This document shows, one piece after another, positions 16,021 to 35,369 of a stretch of 39,903 nt of DNA (the first letter of the stretch is position 1; the number at the start of each line of letters is the position of its first letter). The notes beneath the pieces are model-generated. The model was not told where the DNA came from and did no database searches. It saw nothing but the letters and a program-made list of their open reading frames with translations. The stretch comes from Candidatus Eisenbacteria bacterium (lineage in GTDB: Bacteria; Eisenbacteria; RBG-16-71-46), in the NCBI GenBank assembly GCA_013140805.1, contig JABFRW010000201.1:1-39903 (forward strand), written 5' to 3'. A program made the position numbers and the translations under genes.

Positions 16021-18801
16021 ATGGCACTCCGCAACGGAACTCATACCCGCCCCACGACGCAAGGGCCACAGAACGTGTCCAACCCCGAAGCGATCCGGCT
16101 CGAAGAAGACACCCGCCGCACGAAGAACTGGAAGCGATGGGGCCCGTACCTCTCGGAGCGCCAGTGGGGCACGGTGCGCGAGGACTACTCCGAGGGCGGT
16201 TCGTGCTGGGACTACCTGCCGCACGACCACGCCCGCAGCCGCGCCTACCGCTGGGGCGAGGACGGCCTCCTCGGCTTCACCGACCGCGAGTGCCGCCTGT
16301 GCTTCGGGCTCGCGCTCTGGAACGGCCGCGATCCGATCCTCAAGGAGCGCCTGTTCGGCCTCACCGGCCCCGAAGGGAATCACGGCGAAGACGTGAAGGA
16401 GTCGTACTTCTACCTCGAGTCGACGCCGACGCACTCGTACATGAAGGCGCTCTACAAGTATCCGCACGCCGAGTACCCGTACGCGCGCCTCGTCGATGAG
16501 AACCGCCGCCGCGGCAAGGGCGAGCCCGAGTTCGAGCTGAAGGACACCGGCGTGTTCGACGAGAACCGCTACTTCGACGTGGTCGCCGAGTACGCGAAGG
16601 CCGGCACCGACGACATCCTCATCCAGCTCACGGTCACCAACCGCGGGCCTGAAGCCGCAAAACTCCACCTCGTTCCGACGCTCTGGTTCCGCAACACGTG
16701 GAGCTGGGGGCGGAGCGGCGAGGGCTATTGGCCGAAGCCGGAGCTGCGCCGCCTCGACGACACCACCATCGCCGCGAAGCACGCGACGCTCGGCGAGTAC
16801 CGCCTGTTCGTGGGCGCGGGTCCCTACGGCCGCCCGCCGGCGATGATCTTCACCGAGAACGAGACCAACTCGCAGCGACTGTTCAACGCGGCCAACGCTT
16901 CGCCGTTCGTGAAGGACGCGTTCCACGAATACATCGTCAACGGCCGCTCGTTCGCGGTGAACCCGCGGCGCGCCGGTACCAAGGCCGGCGTCTACTACCG
17001 CGTCGAAGTCCCGGCCGGCGGGGAAGTGGTCGTGAAGCTGCGGCTTGCCGCGGCCTCGGCCGATCCGCGTGAGGCGCTCGGCCCGGAGTTCGATCGCACG
17101 TTCGACCAGCGGCGCGCGGAGTGCGATGAGTTCTACACCGCGCACGTTCCGGCGGGCGCGACCGACGACGAGAAGCGCGTTGTGCGCCAGGGCTACGCCG
17201 GTCTCCTGTGGTCGAAGCAGTTCTACTACTACGTCGTGAAAGACTGGCTCGAGGGCGACCCTTCGCAGCCGGCGCCGCCGGCCGGGCGCAAGCACGGTCG
17301 CAACGCCGACTGGCACCACCTGCACAACCGCGACGTGATCTCGATGCCCGACAAGTGGGAGTACCCGTGGTACGCCGCGTGGGACCTGGCGTTCCACATG
17401 ATCCCGCTCGCGCAGATCGACCCCGAGTTCGCGAAGGAGCAGCTCGTGCTGTTCCTGCGCGAGTGGTACATGCACCCGAACGGGCAGCTGCCGGCCTACG
17501 AGTTCGCGCTCGGGGACGTGAACCCGCCGGTCCATGCGTGGGCCTGCTGGCGCGTCTACAAGCTGACCGGGCCGCGCGGCAAGCGCGATCGCATCTTCCT
17601 CGAGCGTTGCTTCCAGAAGTTGCTCATCAACTTTACCTGGTGGGTCAACCGCAAGGATCTCGAGGGCAAGCACCTGTTCGGCGGCGGATTCCTGGGGCTC
17701 GACAACATCGGCGTGTTCGACCGCTCGAAGCCGCTGCCGGGCGGCGGCCATCTCGAGCAGGCCGACGGCACCGCGTGGATGGCGTTCTACTGCGCGACCA
17801 TGCTCTCGATGGCGCTCGAACTCGCGAGCGAAGACCCGGCGTACGAGGATCTCGCTTCCAAGTTCTTCGAGCACTTCATCGCGATCACCGACGCAATCAA
17901 CACGCTCGGCGGTTCGGGCCTGTGGGACGAGCGCGACGGCTTCTACTACGACCAGCTGCACATGGACGGCACGCTCCAGCCGCTGCGGATTCGCTCGCTG
18001 GTCGGCGTCATTCCGCTGTTCGCGGTCGAGATCCTCGAAGAGAGCGTGATCCAGAAGCTGCCGGGCTTCACCAGGCGCATGCGATGGTTCCTCGAGAACC
18101 GCGGCGATCTCGCACGTCACATCAGCTACATGGAGGCGAAGGGCGGTGATGGCCACGCGCACCGGCTGCTGGCGATTCCGTCGCAGGATCGGCTCGTGAG
18201 CGTGCTGCGCTACGTCCTCGACGAGTCGGAGTTCCTCTCGCCGCACGGTGTGCGCTCGGTTTCGAAAGCGCACGAGAAGGATCCGTTCGTACTCCACGTC
18301 GAGGGCGCCGAGTACCGCGTCGCCTACACGCCCGCTGAATCCGACACCGGGCTGTTCGGCGGCAACTCGAACTGGCGCGGACCGATCTGGTTCCCGCTCA
18401 ACTACCTGCTGATCGAAGCGCTCGAGCGCTATTCGCACTTCTACGGCGACGACCTGAAGGTCGAATGCCCGACCGGCTCCGGCGTGCAGATGACGCTCGC
18501 CGAAGTCGCGCGCGAGCTGAGCCGCCGGCTCGGTACGCTGTTCCTGCGCGACGACTCCGGCCGCCGACCGGTGCATGGCGACGAGCAGCGCTTCCAGTCG
18601 GATCCGGCGTGGCGCGACCTCGTGCTCTTCTACGAGTACTTCCACGGTGATACCGGGCGCGGCGTCGGCGCTTCGCACCAGACCGGCTGGACCGCGCTGG
18701 CGCTGCGCTGCATTGAAGACACCGCCCGCAGTCGGCTCGGCGAGCGTTCGACGCTGAGCGGCGTGACACCGCACGCCGGGATCGGAGTGCCGCAGCCATG
18801 A
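16021..18801 (+). CDS. GH63-type glucosidase
   Basis: 926 aa from the ATG at 16021. Bacterial relative of mannosyl-oligosaccharide glucosidase (GH63/MGH1-like). The N-terminal beta-domain covers about 1-360 ([32 protein letters not shown]). An (alpha/alpha)6 barrel follows: [28 protein letters not shown] (about 446-459, D455 a likely catalytic acid), [10 protein letters not shown], and the [22 protein letters not shown] segment near the C-terminus. It should release glucose from alpha-linked oligosaccharides; the exact linkage is uncertain. No signal peptide is seen. It overlaps the debranching enzyme by four bases. Confidence 0.88.
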
Positions 18802-27299: not shown

Positions 27300-28305
27300 G
27301 GCTTCTGCGATCCACCCTCGCGAGCGCGCTGTTCGCGCTGTTGTTCGCGTTCGCGGCCCGGGCCGCCGAGGTCCCGCTCGTCCAGGGCGTCGGCCCGATC
27401 GAGATCACGGTGTCCGACCTCGATCGCTCGGTGAAGTTCTTCACCGAGGTGCTCACGTTCCGGAAGGTCGCCGAGACCGAGACGATGGGCGAGGGCTACG
27501 AGCACCTGCAGGGTGTGTTCGGCGCGCACGTGCGGCAGGCGACCCTGGCGCTCGGCGACGAGCAGATCCAGCTGACCGAGTACCTCGCACCACGCGGGCT
27601 CGGCCGGCCGGAGACGCAGCGCTCGAACGACCGCTGGTTCCAGCACGTCGCGATCATCGTCAGCGACATGGACGCGGCCTACCGGCGCCTCCGCGAGTTC
27701 AAGGTCGAGCACGCCTCGACGGCTCCGCAGACGCTCCCGGCCTGGAACCCGAACGCCGGCGGGATCTCGGCCTTCTACTTCCGCGACCCCGATGGCCACG
27801 CCCTCGAGATCCTGCACTTCCCGGCCGGCAAGGGCGCCCAGCGGTGGCATCGCAAGGACCGCATGTTCCTCGGAATCGATCACACCGCGATTGTGGTTCA
27901 CGACACCGACCTGAGTCTCGCCTTCTACCGTGACCTGCTCGGCATGAAGGTCGCGGGTGGCGCCGAGAACTGGGGTGTCGAGCAGGAGCGGCTCAACAAC
28001 GTGTACGGCGCGCACCTGCGCATCACGTCGCTCACCGCCGGCGCCGGGCCGTCGATCGAGCTCCTGGAGTACCTTGCGCCCGGTGACGGCCGCCCGTACC
28101 CAGCCGACGAGCACGCCAACGACCTCATCCACTGGCAGACCACGCTGAAGACACGCGACCTCGACGCCGCCGCGAAGGCGCTGCGCGCGGCGCGCTCACC
28201 GATGGTGTCGGGCAGCGCCGTGCAGCTTCCGGATCGCTCGCTGGGATTCTCGAAGGCCCTGATCGTGCGCGACCCCGATGGTCACGCCATGGAGGTGGTG
28301 CAGGA

Positions 28306-28309
<4 letters not shown>
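27296..28309 (+). CDS. Exported protein with two VOC (glyoxalase/dioxygenase) domains
   Basis: 337 aa, GTG start with GGAGGT at 27285-27290. Signal peptide about 1-23 ([18 protein letters not shown]). Two VOC modules follow: first [21 protein letters not shown] to [16 protein letters not shown], second [25 protein letters not shown] to [17 protein letters not shown] domains form metal-dependent glyoxalases, dioxygenases, isomerases or epimerases; the reaction here is unknown. An exported VOC pair between a GMC oxidase and a glucose dehydrogenase suggests action on an oxidised sugar. It overlaps the GDH gene by four bases. Confidence 0.85.
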
Positions 28310-29469
<1,160 letters not shown>

Positions 29470-29587: not shown

Positions 29588-29635
29588 GGAGAGGTGCCGG
29601 AGCGGTCGGACGGCGTGGTCTACTGGACCGTGAGC
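29588..29635 (+). tRNA. tRNA-Ser-like 5' half (degenerate fragment)
   Basis: GGAGAGG-TG-CCG...CGG matches the acceptor 5' strand, positions 8-9 and D-arm of bacterial tRNA-Ser. An anticodon stem can be drawn only with two G-T pairs, and its loop would carry ACT, which is unexpected. No T-arm or acceptor 3' strand follows, so it is not a working gene. Confidence 0.4.
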
Positions 29636-29681
29636 TTCCTGGCTTTCGCACGCTCTCGGGTCGTGCTAACTGTTGCGTCAC

Positions 29682-29720
29682 GGCCCCGTAGCTCAGACGG
29701 ATAGAGCAGCGGTTTCCTAA
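29682..29720 (+). tRNA. tRNA-Arg(CCT) 5' half, cut after the anticodon loop
   Basis: GGCCCCG acceptor 5' strand, TA, D-arm GCTC...GAGC, then GCGGT and loop TTCCTAA with anticodon CCT. An intact gene should continue with ACCGC; the sequence instead changes abruptly to TCGCCCC at 29721. No T-loop or CGGGGCC-type 3' half for it occurs in the next 300 bases. This is the pattern of an attachment site with crossover in the anticodon loop. Confidence 0.8.
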
Positions 29721-29782
29721 TCGCCCCAGGCTGATCTGGACTTGGTGCCCCGGAACATGAACCGCCACAAGGAAATCGTTGC

Positions 29783-29821
29783 GGCCCTGAAGGATTGACC
29801 ACCTTCGGGGCCCCGCTCTTT
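29783..29821 (+). terminator. Hairpin terminator downstream of the ORF remnant
   Basis: GGCCCTGAAGG (29783-29793) pairs with CCTTCGGGGCC (29802-29812), one G-T pair, followed by a CTCTTT tract. It overlaps the end (TGA 29796-29798) of the short reading frame. Confidence 0.65.
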
Positions 29822-29877
29822 CAGGGACAGGGGTGGACCACCACGGCCCCTCGTGGACCCTCAGGCGGTAGCCAAAC

Positions 29878-29903
29878 GGTAGCCACGCGTCGATTCTCGA
29901 CGC
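29878..29903. promoter_or_regulatory. Palindromic site A shared by two island promoters
   Basis: GTAGCCAC is followed by the perfect inverted repeat GCGTCGA-TTC-TCGACGC (29887-29903). A related arrangement (GTAGCCAC then GCGTCG-N6-CGACGC) occurs at 32886-32912 before the restriction gene. It may be a repressor or ParB site. Confidence 0.4.
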
Positions 29904-30033
29904 CACCGTCGACACGCCGGGATTCCTCCCGCACATTCCGTGCGGAACCTGTCCACCATGCTGTGTCCGCCCCGAAGCTGAAGGGCGGCGAACTCACTGC
30001 CGCCTACGTGCGGCCAACGCAAGGAGAAGCGCC

Positions 30034-31932
30034 ATGGAAGACCGTTTGCTTACCGAGATCCAGCGCCAGCAGAAGTACCTGGACGAGCTGGGACCCGAGT
30101 TCACGTTCCCGCTGTTCAACCCGAAGCACGCGATGGACTCCCAGCGCCGCAACGGCTACCGCAACACGGCAGCCGCGGCGCGCGAGATCGTCGACAACTC
30201 GATCGAGGCCGGCGCGAAGAAGGTCCACGTCGTCTTCGAGCGCGCCGCCGCATCGAAGGTCCACGGCCGTACGGAGTCGGTCACCGCGATCGCGTTCATC
30301 GACGACGGAGCGGGCATGCTGCCCCAGATGGCGCGTTGCGCCCTTTGCCTGGGGGGCGGCACTCACTTCGACGAGGCGAGTTTCATCGGGAAGTTCGGAT
30401 TCGGATTGCCGAACTCCTCGATCAATCAGACCAAGCGCGTCGAGGTGTACACCAAGACCGAGGACGATCCCGCGATCTACATGACGTACCTGGACGTCAA
30501 CGAGGTGCAGCACCACGGTCGGGTGGACATCCCCGAGGCGGTGGAGAAGCCCCTGCCGAGGTTTGTGCAGCGGCACCTGGAGAAGTCCGGCTTCAATTTC
30601 GACCACGGAACGGTGGTCGTGTGGGTGGAGCCGGATCGTCTCACCCGGCGCAGCGGAGCGCTCCTCAAGGAGCACCTGGTCGACGACTTCGGTGTCGTGT
30701 ACCGGTACCTGCTCGACAACTTCGAGCTCGAAGTGGACGGCCTGACCGTCGAGAAGGTCGATCCGCTCTTCCTCGACCCGAAGGCGCGGCTCTACGCGAA
30801 GCCCGAGGACGGTGGCGCGACGCTGGCTCGCGACTGGGCCATCGCCGTCAAGTTGGTGCGCAATGGCAGCGAAACGGGGCATCTCGAGCGGGTTCAGCCC
30901 GACGAGGACCTCTTGAAGGACGAGAACATCATCGCGGCCGGCGTGATTGAAGTCCGCATCGCGCACTTCCCGATCGGGCTGGTCGAAGGCAAGAACGAGT
31001 TCGGTGACGACGCGAAGAAGCGAATGGAGATCAAGAAGAGCCGTCCCGGGATCTCCTTCGTCCGTGCGAACCGCGAGATCGACACCATCACGAACCTGCC
31101 GCGTTCGCAGCGTGACAAGAGCAACGGTATGGGCAACTGGCCGTTGCTGCAGGGCTACATTTACAACGTCGGCTGCGAGGTGCGTTTCCAGCCTTCGCTC
31201 GACGAGGCGTTCGGCATTACGAACGACAAGCAAAGCGTCCGTCCTCTGGAGGACTTCTGGAAGATCCTGTCGGCCGAGGAGGTCGACATGGTCTTCAGCA
31301 AGGAATACCGCTGGCACCCGGTCGAGCGCCGTCGGCTGAAGGACGAGCGCAACAAGGTGACAGCCGAACCGAGCCAGGAGGCTTCGCCGGCGGAGAAGGC
31401 AGCTGCCACCGCTGACATGGTGCAGGGCACCGTCCCGAAGGCACCCGAGACCGAGCGCCCGACGCTTCGGCGAAAGTTCGATGCCGAGGCCGAGCGGCAG
31501 TCGAAGGTGACGGGGGAGACGATCGAGGAGGTCAAGAAGGCCCTCGAGAAGCAGGCCAAATTCCGGCCTTACCTCATCGACTACTTCGATGACCCGAACG
31601 CGCCGTTCTATGTGCCGGAGTGGACGCCGGCGGGGCAGGTGCTGGTCAAGGTGAACCGGCAGCACCCGTTCTTCGAGACCCTCTATTCCGCCACCCTGGT
31701 CTCGGGGCAGGGCGCCAGGCTGAAGTACGGCATGGATGTTCTGCTGTTGATGCTCGGCCGCGCGGAGCTCACCGCGGAGCATGACCACACCAAGATGCTC
31801 TACGAGGCTCAGCGCGTGGGAATCTGGTCGCCGTTCCTGCGGAACTCGCTGAAGGTGCTGGAGCAGGCGCTCCAGGATCAAGACGAAATCGAGGAGTCGC
31901 TCGAGGACGACGAGGCCCCGGCGACCGCGTAA
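30034..31932 (+). CDS. GHKL-fold ATPase (MORC/Hsp90-like)
   Basis: 632 aa, ATG with AAGGAGAAG at 30021. GHKL ATP-binding motifs are complete: N-box EIVDNSIEAGA (E51, D54, N55), G1 box IDDGAGM (90-95), G2 box GKFGFGLPNSS (119-129). A transducer-like second domain includes SRPGISFVRANREID and a catalytic-lysine-type NDKQSVRP loop. The C-terminal third is charged (about 430-510), then ends in a domain with LKYGMDVLLLMLGRAEL and an acidic tail. Prokaryotic MORC-type ATPases occur in conflict systems and mobile elements; it may act on DNA, but no partner nuclease is fused. First gene of the island. Confidence 0.82.
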   Translation: MEDRLLTEIQRQQKYLDELGPEFTFPLFNPKHAMDSQRRNGYRNTAAAAREIVDNSIEAGAKKVHVVFERAAASKVHGRTESVTAIAFIDDGAGMLPQMARCALCLGGGTHFDEASFIGKFGFGLPNSSINQTKRVEVYTKTEDDPAIYMTYLDVNEVQHHGRVDIPEAVEKPLPRFVQRHLEKSGFNFDHGTVVVWVEPDRLTRRSGALLKEHLVDDFGVVYRYLLDNFELEVDGLTVEKVDPLFLDPKARLYAKPEDGGATLARDWAIAVKLVRNGSETGHLERVQPDEDLLKDENIIAAGVIEVRIAHFPIGLVEGKNEFGDDAKKRMEIKKSRPGISFVRANREIDTITNLPRSQRDKSNGMGNWPLLQGYIYNVGCEVRFQPSLDEAFGITNDKQSVRPLEDFWKILSAEEVDMVFSKEYRWHPVERRRLKDERNKVTAEPSQEASPAEKAAATADMVQGTVPKAPETERPTLRRKFDAEAERQSKVTGETIEEVKKALEKQAKFRPYLIDYFDDPNAPFYVPEWTPAGQVLVKVNRQHPFFETLYSATLVSGQGARLKYGMDVLLLMLGRAELTAEHDHTKMLYEAQRVGIWSPFLRNSLKVLEQALQDQDEIEESLEDDEAPATA

Positions 31933-31938
31933 TCAGTG

Positions 31939-31972
31939 CCGGCCGGTTGCCAGTTGTCGGGCGACCGGCCGG
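31939..31972 (+). terminator. Hairpin after the GHKL ATPase gene
   Basis: CCGGCCGGT (31939-31947) pairs perfectly with ACCGGCCGG (31964-31972), six bases after the ATPase stop; a weak TGTACTCTT tract follows. A probable terminator. Confidence 0.55.
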
Positions 31973-32115
31973 AGATGTACTCTTCACGACCTGAACAGCC
32001 GGTGCAGGTGCGGCCAACGTGCCGCCTAGGCCCCCGGGCGCTGCAGCGGCATAACGAGACGTCGCCAGTTGATGGCGGCGTTGGCCTGCTGCAAGCGCAA
32101 GGGAGAGCCGCACCC

Positions 32116-32742
32116 ATGTCCATGCCCTCGACCCGTGCAGGGTCGGCCCGTGCAGGGCTGTGCGACCTTTTGGTCGCTTACCTCCGTGGTGACCTCGACG
32201 CCCGCGAACGGTTTCCGGCCGAGGCCCACGACGTTCTCACCCGCCTCGCCGCGCATCACGCCTGGTTCCTGCCTCAGGATGTGCGAGACGAAGTCGTCAG
32301 CGAAGCCCACCTCATCCTGCTCGAACGCGGCGCGGTCTTCGACCCGTCCCGTGCGCCGGCGCGCGTCTTCCTGCGCCTCGTCGTGCGCGACGCGGTGAAG
32401 CGTGTCGCCGCGAGCTACTGCCCGCCGGGGTGGCGCACGCGCCCCACGGCCGGCGATGCCGAACAGCAGCAGCGGGCCGTCCTGTCGCTCGAGCAGCACC
32501 TCGGGCAGGGCGCCGACTTCTGCGACCACTGTGCGGAACGCGAGATCGAGCAGCGGTGCGACCTGCGGACCGTGTTCGACCGCGCGCCGGGCGTCGTGGG
32601 CATCGCGCTGCGGCGCATCTACTGCGACGGCGTGCCCGCCGCTGGCGTCGCGAAGGCGCTCGGCTTGTCGCGGTTCACGCTGCTTCGGCGGATCCACGCC
32701 TTCACGGCCGCTGTTCGCGAAGGGGGTGCCGTCGCCGCGTGA
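32116..32742 (+). CDS. Sigma-70-like protein of the island
   Basis: 208 aa from the ATG at 32116 with GGGAG upstream. The N-terminal half looks like sigma region 2 (VAYLRGDLDARERF ... WFLPQDVRDEVVSEAHLILLERG ... VFLRLVVRDAVKRVAASY). The C-terminal half is a region-4-like helix-turn-helix (VVGIALRRIYCDGVPAAGVAKALGLSRFTLLRRI). A Cys/His patch (FCDHCAEREIEQRC) links them. It could direct island transcription or be a diverged regulator. The match is by pattern and not certain. Confidence 0.6.
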   Translation: MSMPSTRAGSARAGLCDLLVAYLRGDLDARERFPAEAHDVLTRLAAHHAWFLPQDVRDEVVSEAHLILLERGAVFDPSRAPARVFLRLVVRDAVKRVAASYCPPGWRTRPTAGDAEQQQRAVLSLEQHLGQGADFCDHCAEREIEQRCDLRTVFDRAPGVVGIALRRIYCDGVPAAGVAKALGLSRFTLLRRIHAFTAAVREGGAVAA

Positions 32743-32884
32743 CGCAGCTCGCAAGATTGCCTCGGGAGCCCTGGGAAGGCTACCGCTACGCCCCGTGGAA
32801 TTAGTGTCCTGCGGGGCGTTGCGCTGAGCGGTCCAGAAGTAGACGCTCGCCACCATTCATGGACGTTCAAGCCGCAGCCGAATG

Positions 32885-32932
32885 GGTAGCCACAGCGTCG
32901 CGGAATCGACGCTCGTGTCGGCCAGCCGACAC
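32885..32932. promoter_or_regulatory. Tandem inverted repeats upstream of the R-M genes
   Basis: GTAGCCAC, then GCGTCG-N6-CGACGC (32895-32912), then GTGTCGG-CCAG-CCGACAC (32915-32932). Two adjacent operator-like palindromes 76 bases before the nuclease start suggest control of the R-M operon. The first resembles site A at 29878. The 32743-33008 gap shows nothing else. Confidence 0.45.
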
Positions 32933-33008
32933 CTGTTAGTTTCCCGAGCAAATCGCCACCTGGGCGGTTCCTGCGTGCAGCAGCACTCCACCGTGGAGGT
33001 GGTAGGCC

Positions 33009-34394
33009 GTGGCAAAGAGCGACATCGCATTCAGTTCCGAGTTTTCCCCGTCTCAGGTGGATCTTGTGGACGTCCTCAATGTGTTGGAATCGACCGCGGG
33101 CAATAGCGGCGCCCTCCTGAGGGCCGTCCAAGCGAAATGGTTCCCCAAGGCGGTCGTGGCCAAGAACGTGCGTCTGTCCTTGTTGGCCTACGGGATCATC
33201 GCTGATGGTTCGGGGCCGAACGACAAGGGCAGCAAGCTGCACGAGCGGTTCCACCTGACTGACGCCGGCAAGCGGCTCATGGCTCTGCGCGACAACCCCG
33301 ATGCCCTGTATGCCGAGATGGGCCGCCACGTGCTACTGAAGGTGAGGGGGGGCATGGCCGTACTGAACGTCGTCGAGGACCTCGACGCATCTGGCATCGC
33401 CGTCAAGATGGATGCGGTCCGCGAGGAACTGGTGAGGCGCGGCCTGCACATTCCAAAAAACAACATGGCGGCGACGCGTGTCAGGCAGTGGCTCGAGAAA
33501 TGCGGGGTGGTGACTCCCGAGCCACATCGGGTCGTCGAGGCACGCAAGGCCGAACTCCTCGGATCCTCGACGCAAGAGATCGAAGCATTGGACGGGCTGA
33601 CAAGCGAGCAGAAGGCCTACGCCCGGGCGCTCGCCCGGATGAACGTCACGGAAATCCGCTCGAACGAGGTCGCCAAGTTCGCGACGGAGACCTTTGGCGT
33701 CCGGTTTCCCGACACGGGTCTGCCTGGTGCCGTCCTCGAGCCCCTGAAGGAGCGAGGGCTGTTGACCTATCAGAAGACGACCGGAGGGCGAGGGGCGAAG
33801 CCGTCGATTGTTCGCCCGACGGAGAAACTCAAGATCGACGTCTTCGAGCCTCTGCTCGACGCCGTCGAAGCATCCGCCGGCATCGAGTATCGCTCCTTCG
33901 TTCGCGCGCCTTGGGCCGACGTCCTGCGCGACCTGAAGAGCGAGAACAAGAACGTCAAGGGGAAGGCCCTGGAGGCTCTCGCGGCGAAGCTCTCCTTCGT
34001 CGCCGGCTTGGAGTATCGTGCGTGGCGGCTCCGGGGGACGACCACCGGCGGCGCCGAGGTCGACCTCTTGGTCGAGAGTCACAAGCCCGTCTTCCTGCGT
34101 TGGAACATTCAGTGTAAGAACACGAGCTCAGTGCGCCTGGACGATGTCGCGAAAGAGGTTGGGCTCGCCGTCCAGATGGACGCGAACGTGGTGGTTGTCG
34201 TCTCGACCGGGCGGTTCTCCGCTGACGCCATCGAGCACGCGAAGAGTGTCATGAAGCGCACCAACTTGACCGTGGTCCTCATGGACGAACGAGACATCAA
34301 GGCGATCGCCGAGAACCCCGCAACAATCTTCGAGATCTTGCACCGGACGGCGAAGCTGGCCGCAACCCTCAAACGGATTGAGGACGAGTCGTGA
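33009..34394 (+). CDS. Type II-like restriction endonuclease with PD-(D/E)XK core
   Basis: 461 aa, GTG start with GGAGGT at 32996-33001. The N-terminal two-thirds appear to be winged-helix-type DNA-binding segments (LRAVQAKWFPKAVVAKNVRLSLLAYGII; later EVAKFATETFGVRFP, LEPLKERGLLTYQ). The C-terminal nuclease core has E322 (KALEALA), D352 in AEVDLLVES and QCK (Q368, K370) in WNIQCKNT: the E-D-QxK pattern of PD-(D/E)XK enzymes, Mrr-like. It overlaps the methyltransferase gene by four bases (GTGA), which supports a restriction partner. The recognition site is unknown. Confidence 0.82.
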   Translation: MAKSDIAFSSEFSPSQVDLVDVLNVLESTAGNSGALLRAVQAKWFPKAVVAKNVRLSLLAYGIIADGSGPNDKGSKLHERFHLTDAGKRLMALRDNPDALYAEMGRHVLLKVRGGMAVLNVVEDLDASGIAVKMDAVREELVRRGLHIPKNNMAATRVRQWLEKCGVVTPEPHRVVEARKAELLGSSTQEIEALDGLTSEQKAYARALARMNVTEIRSNEVAKFATETFGVRFPDTGLPGAVLEPLKERGLLTYQKTTGGRGAKPSIVRPTEKLKIDVFEPLLDAVEASAGIEYRSFVRAPWADVLRDLKSENKNVKGKALEALAAKLSFVAGLEYRAWRLRGTTTGGAEVDLLVESHKPVFLRWNIQCKNTSSVRLDDVAKEVGLAVQMDANVVVVVSTGRFSADAIEHAKSVMKRTNLTVVLMDERDIKAIAENPATIFEILHRTAKLAATLKRIEDES

Positions 34395-35341
34395 CGGCAT
34401 TCCCAAGGATCAAGCAGGACGCGGCATACACGACCAAGCTCGGCAAGGCGTACATCGCGGACTCCCGCGGCCTGATGGAGACGCTTCCCGACGAGAGCGT
34501 CGATCTGGTGATGACCTCGCCGCCGTTCGCGCTCCTGCGTCAGAAGGACTACGGAAACGTCCCCGACCACGAGTACATCGCCTGGTTCACGCCGTTCGCG
34601 AAAGAGATCCAGCGTATCCTGAAGCCCACCGGGAGCTTCGTACTCGACATTGGCGGGACTTGGAACAAGGGTGAGCCCACACGCTCGGTCTACCATTACG
34701 ACCTCGCGGTCCAGCTCGTGCGCCACGGCTTCTTTCTGGCACAGGAGTTCTTCTGGTTTAACCCGGCCAAGCTGCCCAGCCCGGCTGAGTGGGTGACGGT
34801 CCGGCGAATCCGCGTGAAGGACGCTGTCAACATGGTCTGGTGGTTCTCGAAGACCACGAAGCCGAAGGCGACGAACCGCAAGGTGCTGACGCCGTACAGC
34901 GAGTCGATGAAGGCCCTCCTCAAGAATGGCTACAACAAGGGCCTGCGTCCTTCTGGCCACGATATCTCCGATAACTTTTCGAAGGACAACGGCGGCGCGA
35001 TCCCGTCCAACCTCCTGGCCATTCCGAACACGGAGAGCAACACGCTTTACCAACGACGGTGTAAGGAGTGCGGCATCAAGGCACATCCGGCGCGGTACCC
35101 CGCGGGACTGCCTGACTTCTTCGTGAAGATGCTCACGGATCCGGGCGATCTGGTGCTCGATCCGTTCGGGGGCTCGAACATGACCGGCCAGGTGTGTGAG
35201 GCCGATGGTCGGCGCTGGATCTCCTGCGACCTCGATCCTGAATACGTCACCGCGTCCATGTTCCGCTTCGACGGGAAGATCGTTTCGAAAACGATTGCGC
35301 TCCCACGGCCGAAGCTCAAGGTCGTCAAGAAGACCGCTTAA
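34391..35341 (+). CDS. DNA methyltransferase, beta class (N4-cytosine or N6-adenine)
   Basis: 316 aa, GTG start overlapping the nuclease stop. Catalytic motif IV TSPPF (42-46) precedes the AdoMet motif DPFGGSNMTG (257-266), which is the beta-class order. TSPPF and the FWFNPAKLPSPAEWVTVRRIRVKDAVNMVWWF region resemble M.PvuII-like N4-cytosine enzymes. It would protect host sites from the coupled nuclease. The product ends 6 bases before a terminator-like hairpin. Confidence 0.9.
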   Translation: MTAFPRIKQDAAYTTKLGKAYIADSRGLMETLPDESVDLVMTSPPFALLRQKDYGNVPDHEYIAWFTPFAKEIQRILKPTGSFVLDIGGTWNKGEPTRSVYHYDLAVQLVRHGFFLAQEFFWFNPAKLPSPAEWVTVRRIRVKDAVNMVWWFSKTTKPKATNRKVLTPYSESMKALLKNGYNKGLRPSGHDISDNFSKDNGGAIPSNLLAIPNTESNTLYQRRCKECGIKAHPARYPAGLPDFFVKMLTDPGDLVLDPFGGSNMTGQVCEADGRRWISCDLDPEYVTASMFRFDGKIVSKTIALPRPKLKVVKKTA

Positions 35342-35346
35342 GAAAA

Positions 35347-35369
35347 CCCCGCTTCACTTGGAAGCGGGG
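35347..35369. terminator. Bidirectional hairpin between methyltransferase and CHC2 genes
   Basis: Perfect 9-bp stem CCCCGCTTC (35347-35355) with GAAGCGGGG (35361-35369). On the minus strand it is followed by TTTTCTT, a good terminator for the CHC2 gene, whose stop codon lies in the arm. Confidence 0.72.

Follow-up and report, generated by a model that had tools for sequence, protein, structure and literature searches.

The 39,903-bp window analysed here is an entire contig (C201) of a fragmented metagenome-assembled genome (MAG) of a Candidatus Eisenbacteria bacterium (G000; 3.80 Mb, 96% complete, 215 contigs), and it carries the 5' half of a tRNA-Arg(CCT) gene that is severed at the anticodon loop. 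This half is almost certainly one attachment (att) junction of an integrated plasmid-like mobile element of ca. 29.2 kb plus one copy of an insertion sequence (IS), whose other end lies on contig C23. The assignment is based on a 39-nt identity that runs to the end of the loop together with the single intact tRNA-Arg(CCT) that the 96%-complete genome yielded, on an integrase (IntA) with conserved catalytic residues 8 bp from this restored tRNA and an excisionase-type gene behind it, and on a target-site duplication TGGTTTGC that matches for the C201-C23 pair only. It further draws on the native leader that accompanies the severed half and the chromosomal 3' flank that accompanies the tRNA on C23, on repeat pairs on both sides of the core of the predicted attachment site of the element (attP), on a corresponding arrangement in a viral-collection contig (L203) and in G010:C199, and on the plasmid-like content of both arms. 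Both junctions, the IS link, the paired arm repeats and a pre-insertion-like site in a relative are visible in the DNA itself. For comparison 20 genomes of the same family were used (G-numbers); L-numbers denote loci, including contigs from a viral collection. The features at the two junctions are:

29682-29720, + strand: displaced 5' half of tRNA-Arg(CCT), bases 1-39, forming the left attachment junction; identity to the intact tRNA at G000:C23:41323-41285 (-) is 100%
29714-29720, + strand: 7-nt anticodon loop TTCCTAA, predicted crossover (overlap) segment; both att junctions stay identical until its last base, and in other tRNAs the integrase relatives border on this very position
29624-29681, + strand: original chromosomal leader and putative promoter region of the tRNA, with an extended -10-like TGCTAACT at 29664-29671; the leader has matches in relatives
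C23:41247-41323, - strand: sole intact tRNA-Arg(CCT) found in G000, called as an intact tRNA beside IntA
C23:41332-42327, - strand: tyrosine integrase IntA (PF00589, 4.5e-19; phrog_1 integrase)
C23:42330-42500: excisionase-type HTH_17 protein, directly behind IntA (profile match)

The 39-nt match spans tRNA base 1 to standard position 38 with zero mismatches (E = 5e-13 in a 3.8-Mb genome), and divergence starts at 29721, in agreement with an earlier sequence-only reading in which the tRNA was kept up to A38. One further copy of the 39 nt occurs in G000, inside the intact tRNA-Arg(CCT) on C23; a tRNA-Arg(TCT) on C9 resembles it at 89%. ARAGORN called no intact tRNA anywhere in the window and Rfam gave no tRNA at the severed region. 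Identity between the att junctions stops at the loop end, which supports the crossover within the anticodon loop that had been proposed. The search for a 3' half or an intact tRNA-Arg(CCT) elsewhere, suggested at the time, led to the copy at C23 41247-41323 (minus strand). Its position beside an integrase supports the idea that the element rebuilds the tRNA at its far end, and a deletion of the 3' half, offered as an alternative, need not be assumed, the chromosomal 3' half being still present in the restored tRNA.

In the direction of the tRNA the order on C23 is HTH_17 gene, IntA, 8 bases and the intact tRNA. The IntA open reading frame is whole, its stop lies 8 bp before the restored tRNA, and the conserved catalytic R, K, HxxR, H and Y are kept. 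The earlier remark that no integrase is nearby holds for the window; this is the entire contig, however, and the integrase sits on another contig, at the other end of the element. With the intact tRNA and the adjacent tyrosine integrase tied to the window via one IS copy, the claim that the severed tRNA marks the edge of an island is supported. The features that provide this tie on the window side are:

39769-39776, + strand: 8-bp target-site duplication TGGTTTGC, repeated at C23:60463-60470 (reverse complement)
39777-39903, + strand: left end of an IS256-like insertion sequence inside which the contig stops; 127-bp overlap with four other contig ends, terminal repeat resembling that at the C23 end

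The end of C23 has ca. 126 bp in common with two other contig ends. Alignment of the contig ends gave both termini of one IS type, GTTAGCGTAACGTCGCTTCTGTAA and GATAGTGCAACGCGCTTTCTGTAA, and an inward reading frame at the C23 end resembles a transposase C-terminus, which we take to be of the IS256 type. When the five left and three right IS flanks were paired, TGGTTTGC flanks matched in one of the 15 combinations, C201-C23, and the other 14 matched by at most 2; the chance of an 8-mer match among 15 pairings is ca. 2 in 10,000. Most simply, a single IS copy with its target duplication would lie between C201 and C23. Once closed, the element has a length of 10,056 + 19,147 bp plus one IS (ca. 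29.2 kb without the IS) and runs from the severed half to IntA and the restored tRNA.

The flanks of the two tRNA copies resemble those of an unoccupied site. The leader and severed half (window 29624-29720) match G001 at 89% over 97 nt, and shorter leader stretches match G014, G008 and G019, all three of which have an intact tRNA behind the leader. On C23, the sequence 3' of the restored tRNA is ca. 91% identical to that following the native-leader tRNA in G008. Joining the leader flank of C201 to the 3' flank of C23 gives a site like that of a relative without this element. A chromosomal leader on the severed half and a chromosomal 3' flank on the restored tRNA are what an element carrying a tRNA 5' half requires.

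The predicted attP consists of the IntA end of C23, the tRNA 5' half and the window from 29721 onward. Its right arm contains:

29866-29885, + strand: tandem pair CGGTAGCCA with 11-bp spacing, candidate arm-type integrase sites; like the pair at the IntA end on C23, left of the core

Tandem pairs GGTAGCCA/CGGTAGCCA with 11-12-bp spacing are thus located 74 bp to the left and 149 bp to the right of the loop. Two pairs sharing a 7-mer were found in none of 4000 random 400-bp windows, and the pairs are candidates for arm-type integrase sites, being as expected of such sites (cf. PMC10865867). In L203, an integrase region with 84% DNA identity to G010:C115 precedes the tRNA-Arg(CCT) 5' half, behind which lies element DNA with a parB related to that of G010:C199; the latter contig likewise shows integrase, 5' half and element DNA with parB. 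This order is the arrangement predicted for attP, but L203 could also represent a tandem junction.

We infer the following course of integration. The attP of the element would have carried the tRNA-Arg(CCT) 5' half beside the integrase gene, and IntA would have recombined it with the chromosomal tRNA, with the crossover in the 7-nt anticodon loop. This would push the chromosomal 5' half with its promoter to the distal end, which is seen in the window, and the 5' half of the element together with the chromosomal 3' half would rebuild an intact tRNA beside the integrase on C23. Unlike in the common 3'-half mode, the rebuilt tRNA would be cut off from its own promoter and its transcription would then start from element DNA, either by read-through from int or from a promoter at the int end (TAACTTGTTG). 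The stop codon TAA of int is the first triplet of this -10-like TAACTTGTTG, which the native leader of G001 also has at -10 (CTAACTTGTTG). Catalysis by IntA, excision of the element and the new tRNA promoter are predictions of this scheme.

Several observations weigh against an integrated element of this form. The link between C201 and C23 consists of IS termini and the 8-bp duplication and not of a continuous sequence spanning C201-IS-C23. Five contig ends stop at the left IS terminus against three at the right, and the bin must therefore lack some of the IS joins. A search before the restored tRNA gave no sigma-70-like or consensus promoter. Chromosomal synteny around the tRNA was sought in the flanks of relatives and was almost absent, so the empty-site comparison rests on short flanks only; of the comparison with relatives lacking the island that the earlier reading had proposed, the short flanks agree with an empty-like site and the wider synteny does not follow. 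The G008 3' flank may, to judge by a AGGGGAGACC pair, itself be an arm of another element. L203 had no end repeats when tested for them, and an exact search of the viral collection for the severed-half junction (loop plus right arm) gave no match, nor was an excised circle of the element found.

The best of the other explanations, which we nevertheless regard as improbable, is that the severed half and the restored tRNA derive from different insertions in a tandem array of at least two elements, the one in the window having lost its own integrase. Several orphan 5' halves do occur within one genome (G001, G019) and a second apparent element lies downstream of the tRNA on C23, but G000 yielded a single orphan 5' half and a single intact tRNA. 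The IS bridge, moreover, connects the arms with no further att junction in between, and the two contigs agree in their arm repeats. Still less probable is a chimeric assembly join at 29720, raised in the sequence-only reading, by which a chromosomal contig and an unrelated plasmid contig would have been fused at the 39 nt of tRNA sequence that they share. The assembly is fragmented and the 39 nt are common to another contig, but they are far shorter than the 127-bp overlaps at the contig ends, so a 39-nt repeat alone would not be an assembly breakpoint. The same junction type also recurs in independent MAGs and in one viral-collection contig, and the far end of the island is tied to its predicted partner by the target-site duplication; with that end found and linked, the chimera was rejected. 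Decay of the tRNA to a pseudogene by deletion or rearrangement instead of site-specific integration is scarcely credible: some orphan halves in the family are degenerate with 2-3 mismatches (G009, G001), but here 39 nt match without a mismatch and stop exactly at the anticodon loop. The counterpart junction on C23, with its integrase, contradicts this reading.

The right arm of the integrated element, on the window side, holds plasmid-like and defence genes:

29721-39776, strand not assigned: right arm of the element, 10,056 bp, bounded by the severed tRNA and the IS
30034-31932, + strand: HATPase_c_3 ATPase, weakly MzaB-like (Pfam 3e-15; PADLOC 1e-11)
33009-34394, + strand: Mrr-type restriction endonuclease (PF04471, 1e-8)
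34391-35341, + strand: N6/N4 DNA methyltransferase, type II (PF01555, 6e-41; PADLOC MTase_II, 5e-127)
35802-36887, - strand: replication-initiation-like (Rep-like) protein (phrog_270, 4e-5)
36969-37985, - strand: ParB (PF02195, 4e-26)
37903-38718, - strand: ParA (PF13614, 2e-45)
39150-39800, + strand: TIR-domain protein (PF13676, 2e-14)

Profile searches thus recovered the parA, parB, Rep-like, restriction-modification and TIR genes that had been listed from the sequence; the 'CHC2' gene of that list had no Pfam match and a weak DnaG-like PADLOC match. On C23, the stretch from IntA to the contig end (60596) encodes SSB, a Replic_Relax protein (3e-12), a marginal TraG/TraD-like ATPase (TraG-D_C, 1.5e-4), a GmrSD-type protein, a second integrase fragment and an IS21 pair. 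Judged by their genes both arms look plasmid-like, with parAB and the Rep-like gene on one and SSB, Replic_Relax and the TraG-like gene on the other. Integrative and mobilizable elements combine an integrase, an excisionase-like gene, a relaxation-type protein, a TraG/TraD-like ATPase, parAB and restriction-modification cargo. The element has candidates for all those gene types, that for the TraG/TraD-like ATPase being marginal, and is putatively mobile, but differs in that no secretion or conjugation genes were seen among the scanned proteins of its two arms.

To the left of the island the gene order is rearranged in G000. In G006, G015 and G017 the dehydrogenase gene, which here precedes the island, has the window-16021 gene directly after it (window 16021-17500 and 27512-29469). 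A degenerate tRNA-Ser 5' half (GGAGAGGTGCCGGAGCGG...GGTCT) at 29588-29621 ends at its anticodon loop ca. 60 bp before the severed tRNA-Arg; it outscored all 400 control windows from the same contig and is perhaps an older scar of the same kind.

Further tRNA remnants lie downstream of the intact tRNA on C23. An orphan tRNA-Arg(CCT) 3' half is located ca. 4.1 kb away at G000:C23:37062-37107, with ArsR-like, methyltransferase, DsrE and FCSD-like genes in between, and a AGGGGAGACC tandem pair, also seen in G008, stands beside the intact tRNA in its 3' flank (41111-41247). The presence of this pair in both 3' flanks suggests a second, 3'-half-type element downstream in both genomes. On C23 it would probably lack its own integrase and reach from the tRNA to the orphan 3' half, with its far end at C23:37107. 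A second integrase, IntB (G000:C23:33487-34392, + strand; 51% identity to IntA), is convergent with the orphan 3' half at a distance of 2.7 kb; its nearest relative (G018:C12) adjoins an intact tRNA-Arg(CCT), also in convergent orientation.

The recurrence of such scars was examined in the 20 family genomes with up to 3 mismatches allowed for the 5' half and a matching search for the 3' half. The 5' half occurred 21 times, 10 times in intact or nearly intact tRNAs and 11 times as an orphan (in 8 genomes), against 2 orphan 3' halves. The 5'-half scar is thus predominant at tRNA-Arg(CCT) in this family, a bias that is local, given the small numbers and related elements, and carries no general claim. 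Several orphan 5' halves in the same orientation, 3-7 kb apart, were seen at L066 (G001:C18, 8907-17260) and L082 (G019:C100, 1236 and 8130), arrays that are apparently accretions of successive insertions. At L080 (G018:C250, 1442-1519) a tRNA-Arg(CCT) copy beside an IntA relative has an extra base in the anticodon region, where ARAGORN reads a 4-base anticodon (ccta).

Relatives of IntA were found at ca. 43-72% identity (nearer ones) and down to ca. 32% (the farthest used), the named genomes carrying them being mostly Candidatus Eisenbacteria MAGs; among plasmid-collection integrases none was close, the best at ca. 30%. In most relatives the 3' end of the gene is directed at a tRNA anticodon-loop junction. 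The same orientation was seen with an intact tRNA or 5' half for Arg(CCT), Ser(CGA), Lys(TTT), Val(GAC) and a Ser in viral contig L205, and with a 3' half only for Ser, Lys(TTT), Cys and Arg; Arg(CCT), Met, Lys(CTT) and Glu occurred in convergent orientation. On a maximum-likelihood tree of 34 integrases, in which several inner branches are weak, some partial matches are short and L202 is ambiguous as to the half carried, orientation needs at least 4 changes, and half and orientation together need 8. Given the weak inner branches and short partial matches we lean only slightly towards the view that one integrase clade, found in Eisenbacteria and in their mobile elements, recognises the anticodon stem-loop, a near-palindrome, of many tRNAs and does so in either orientation, having switched at least 3-4 times. 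In seven viral-collection contigs (L195, L198-L201, L204 and L207) an IntA relative faces a tRNA-Met 3' half in convergent orientation, and most of these contigs have a ParB-like gene on the far side of the att site; they are likely temperate phages or phage-plasmids of Eisenbacteria.

Among 3919 islands in 2168 genomes, Islander lists 159 with a 5' tRNA fragment and 3760 with a 3' fragment, and its configuration filter places a 5' fragment upstream of the tRNA (PMC4383910). The present element is like that 5' class in that an intact tRNA and a displaced fragment bound an integrase-bearing island with an anticodon-loop crossover. Once joined via the IS, the cognate 5' fragment lies upstream of the intact tDNA in the same orientation, a non-Xer tyrosine integrase (IntA) is inside the element and the length is within 2-200 kb; the two ends, which would lie on one replicon, are linked via the IS termini and 8-bp duplication and not via continuous sequence. 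Nothing essential differs, except that here, throughout a bacterial family, most scars at one tRNA are 5' fragments. Integration of the archaeal pTN3 in Thermococcales similarly rebuilds a full tRNA beside the integrase gene and away from the original promoter (PMC5495485, PMC8371274), and here too the 5' half is common to the predicted attP and attB and the tRNA is rebuilt off its native promoter. The attP of pTN3, however, is inside the integrase gene, which is split on integration, whereas IntA is whole; a bacterial counterpart has been called seldom encountered (PMC8371274). In tRNA-dependent lysogeny of mycobacteriophages, a tyrosine integrase likewise acts at a tRNA gene, commonly in the anticodon loop, with paired putative arm-type sites around the attP core (PMC10865867). 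There the common core is only ca. 10 bp, and the phage supplies a complete tRNA gene in place of a rebuilt host tRNA, whereas here an intact tRNA-Arg(CCT) stands at the IntA junction.

The element therefore belongs to a minority, already known kind of tRNA island, the 5'-fragment type; the kind is known, and the dual-orientation integrase clade is the interesting part. An odd tRNA fragment has become a mapped mobile element in a poorly studied phylum, and the 11 to 2 ratio of orphan halves indicates that the rare 5'-half mode can be the usual mode at a given locus. If the view of the clade is correct, the 5' half would be the part carried by some members, which take over transcription of the tRNA, and the 3' half the part carried by their close relatives; stacks of orphan 5' halves would be left at tRNA-Arg(CCT). 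With near relatives in opposite orientation and at different tRNA targets, the clade offers a natural set for studying what fixes the polarity of tRNA integration, and the fate of a tRNA whose promoter is replaced by that of a mobile element.
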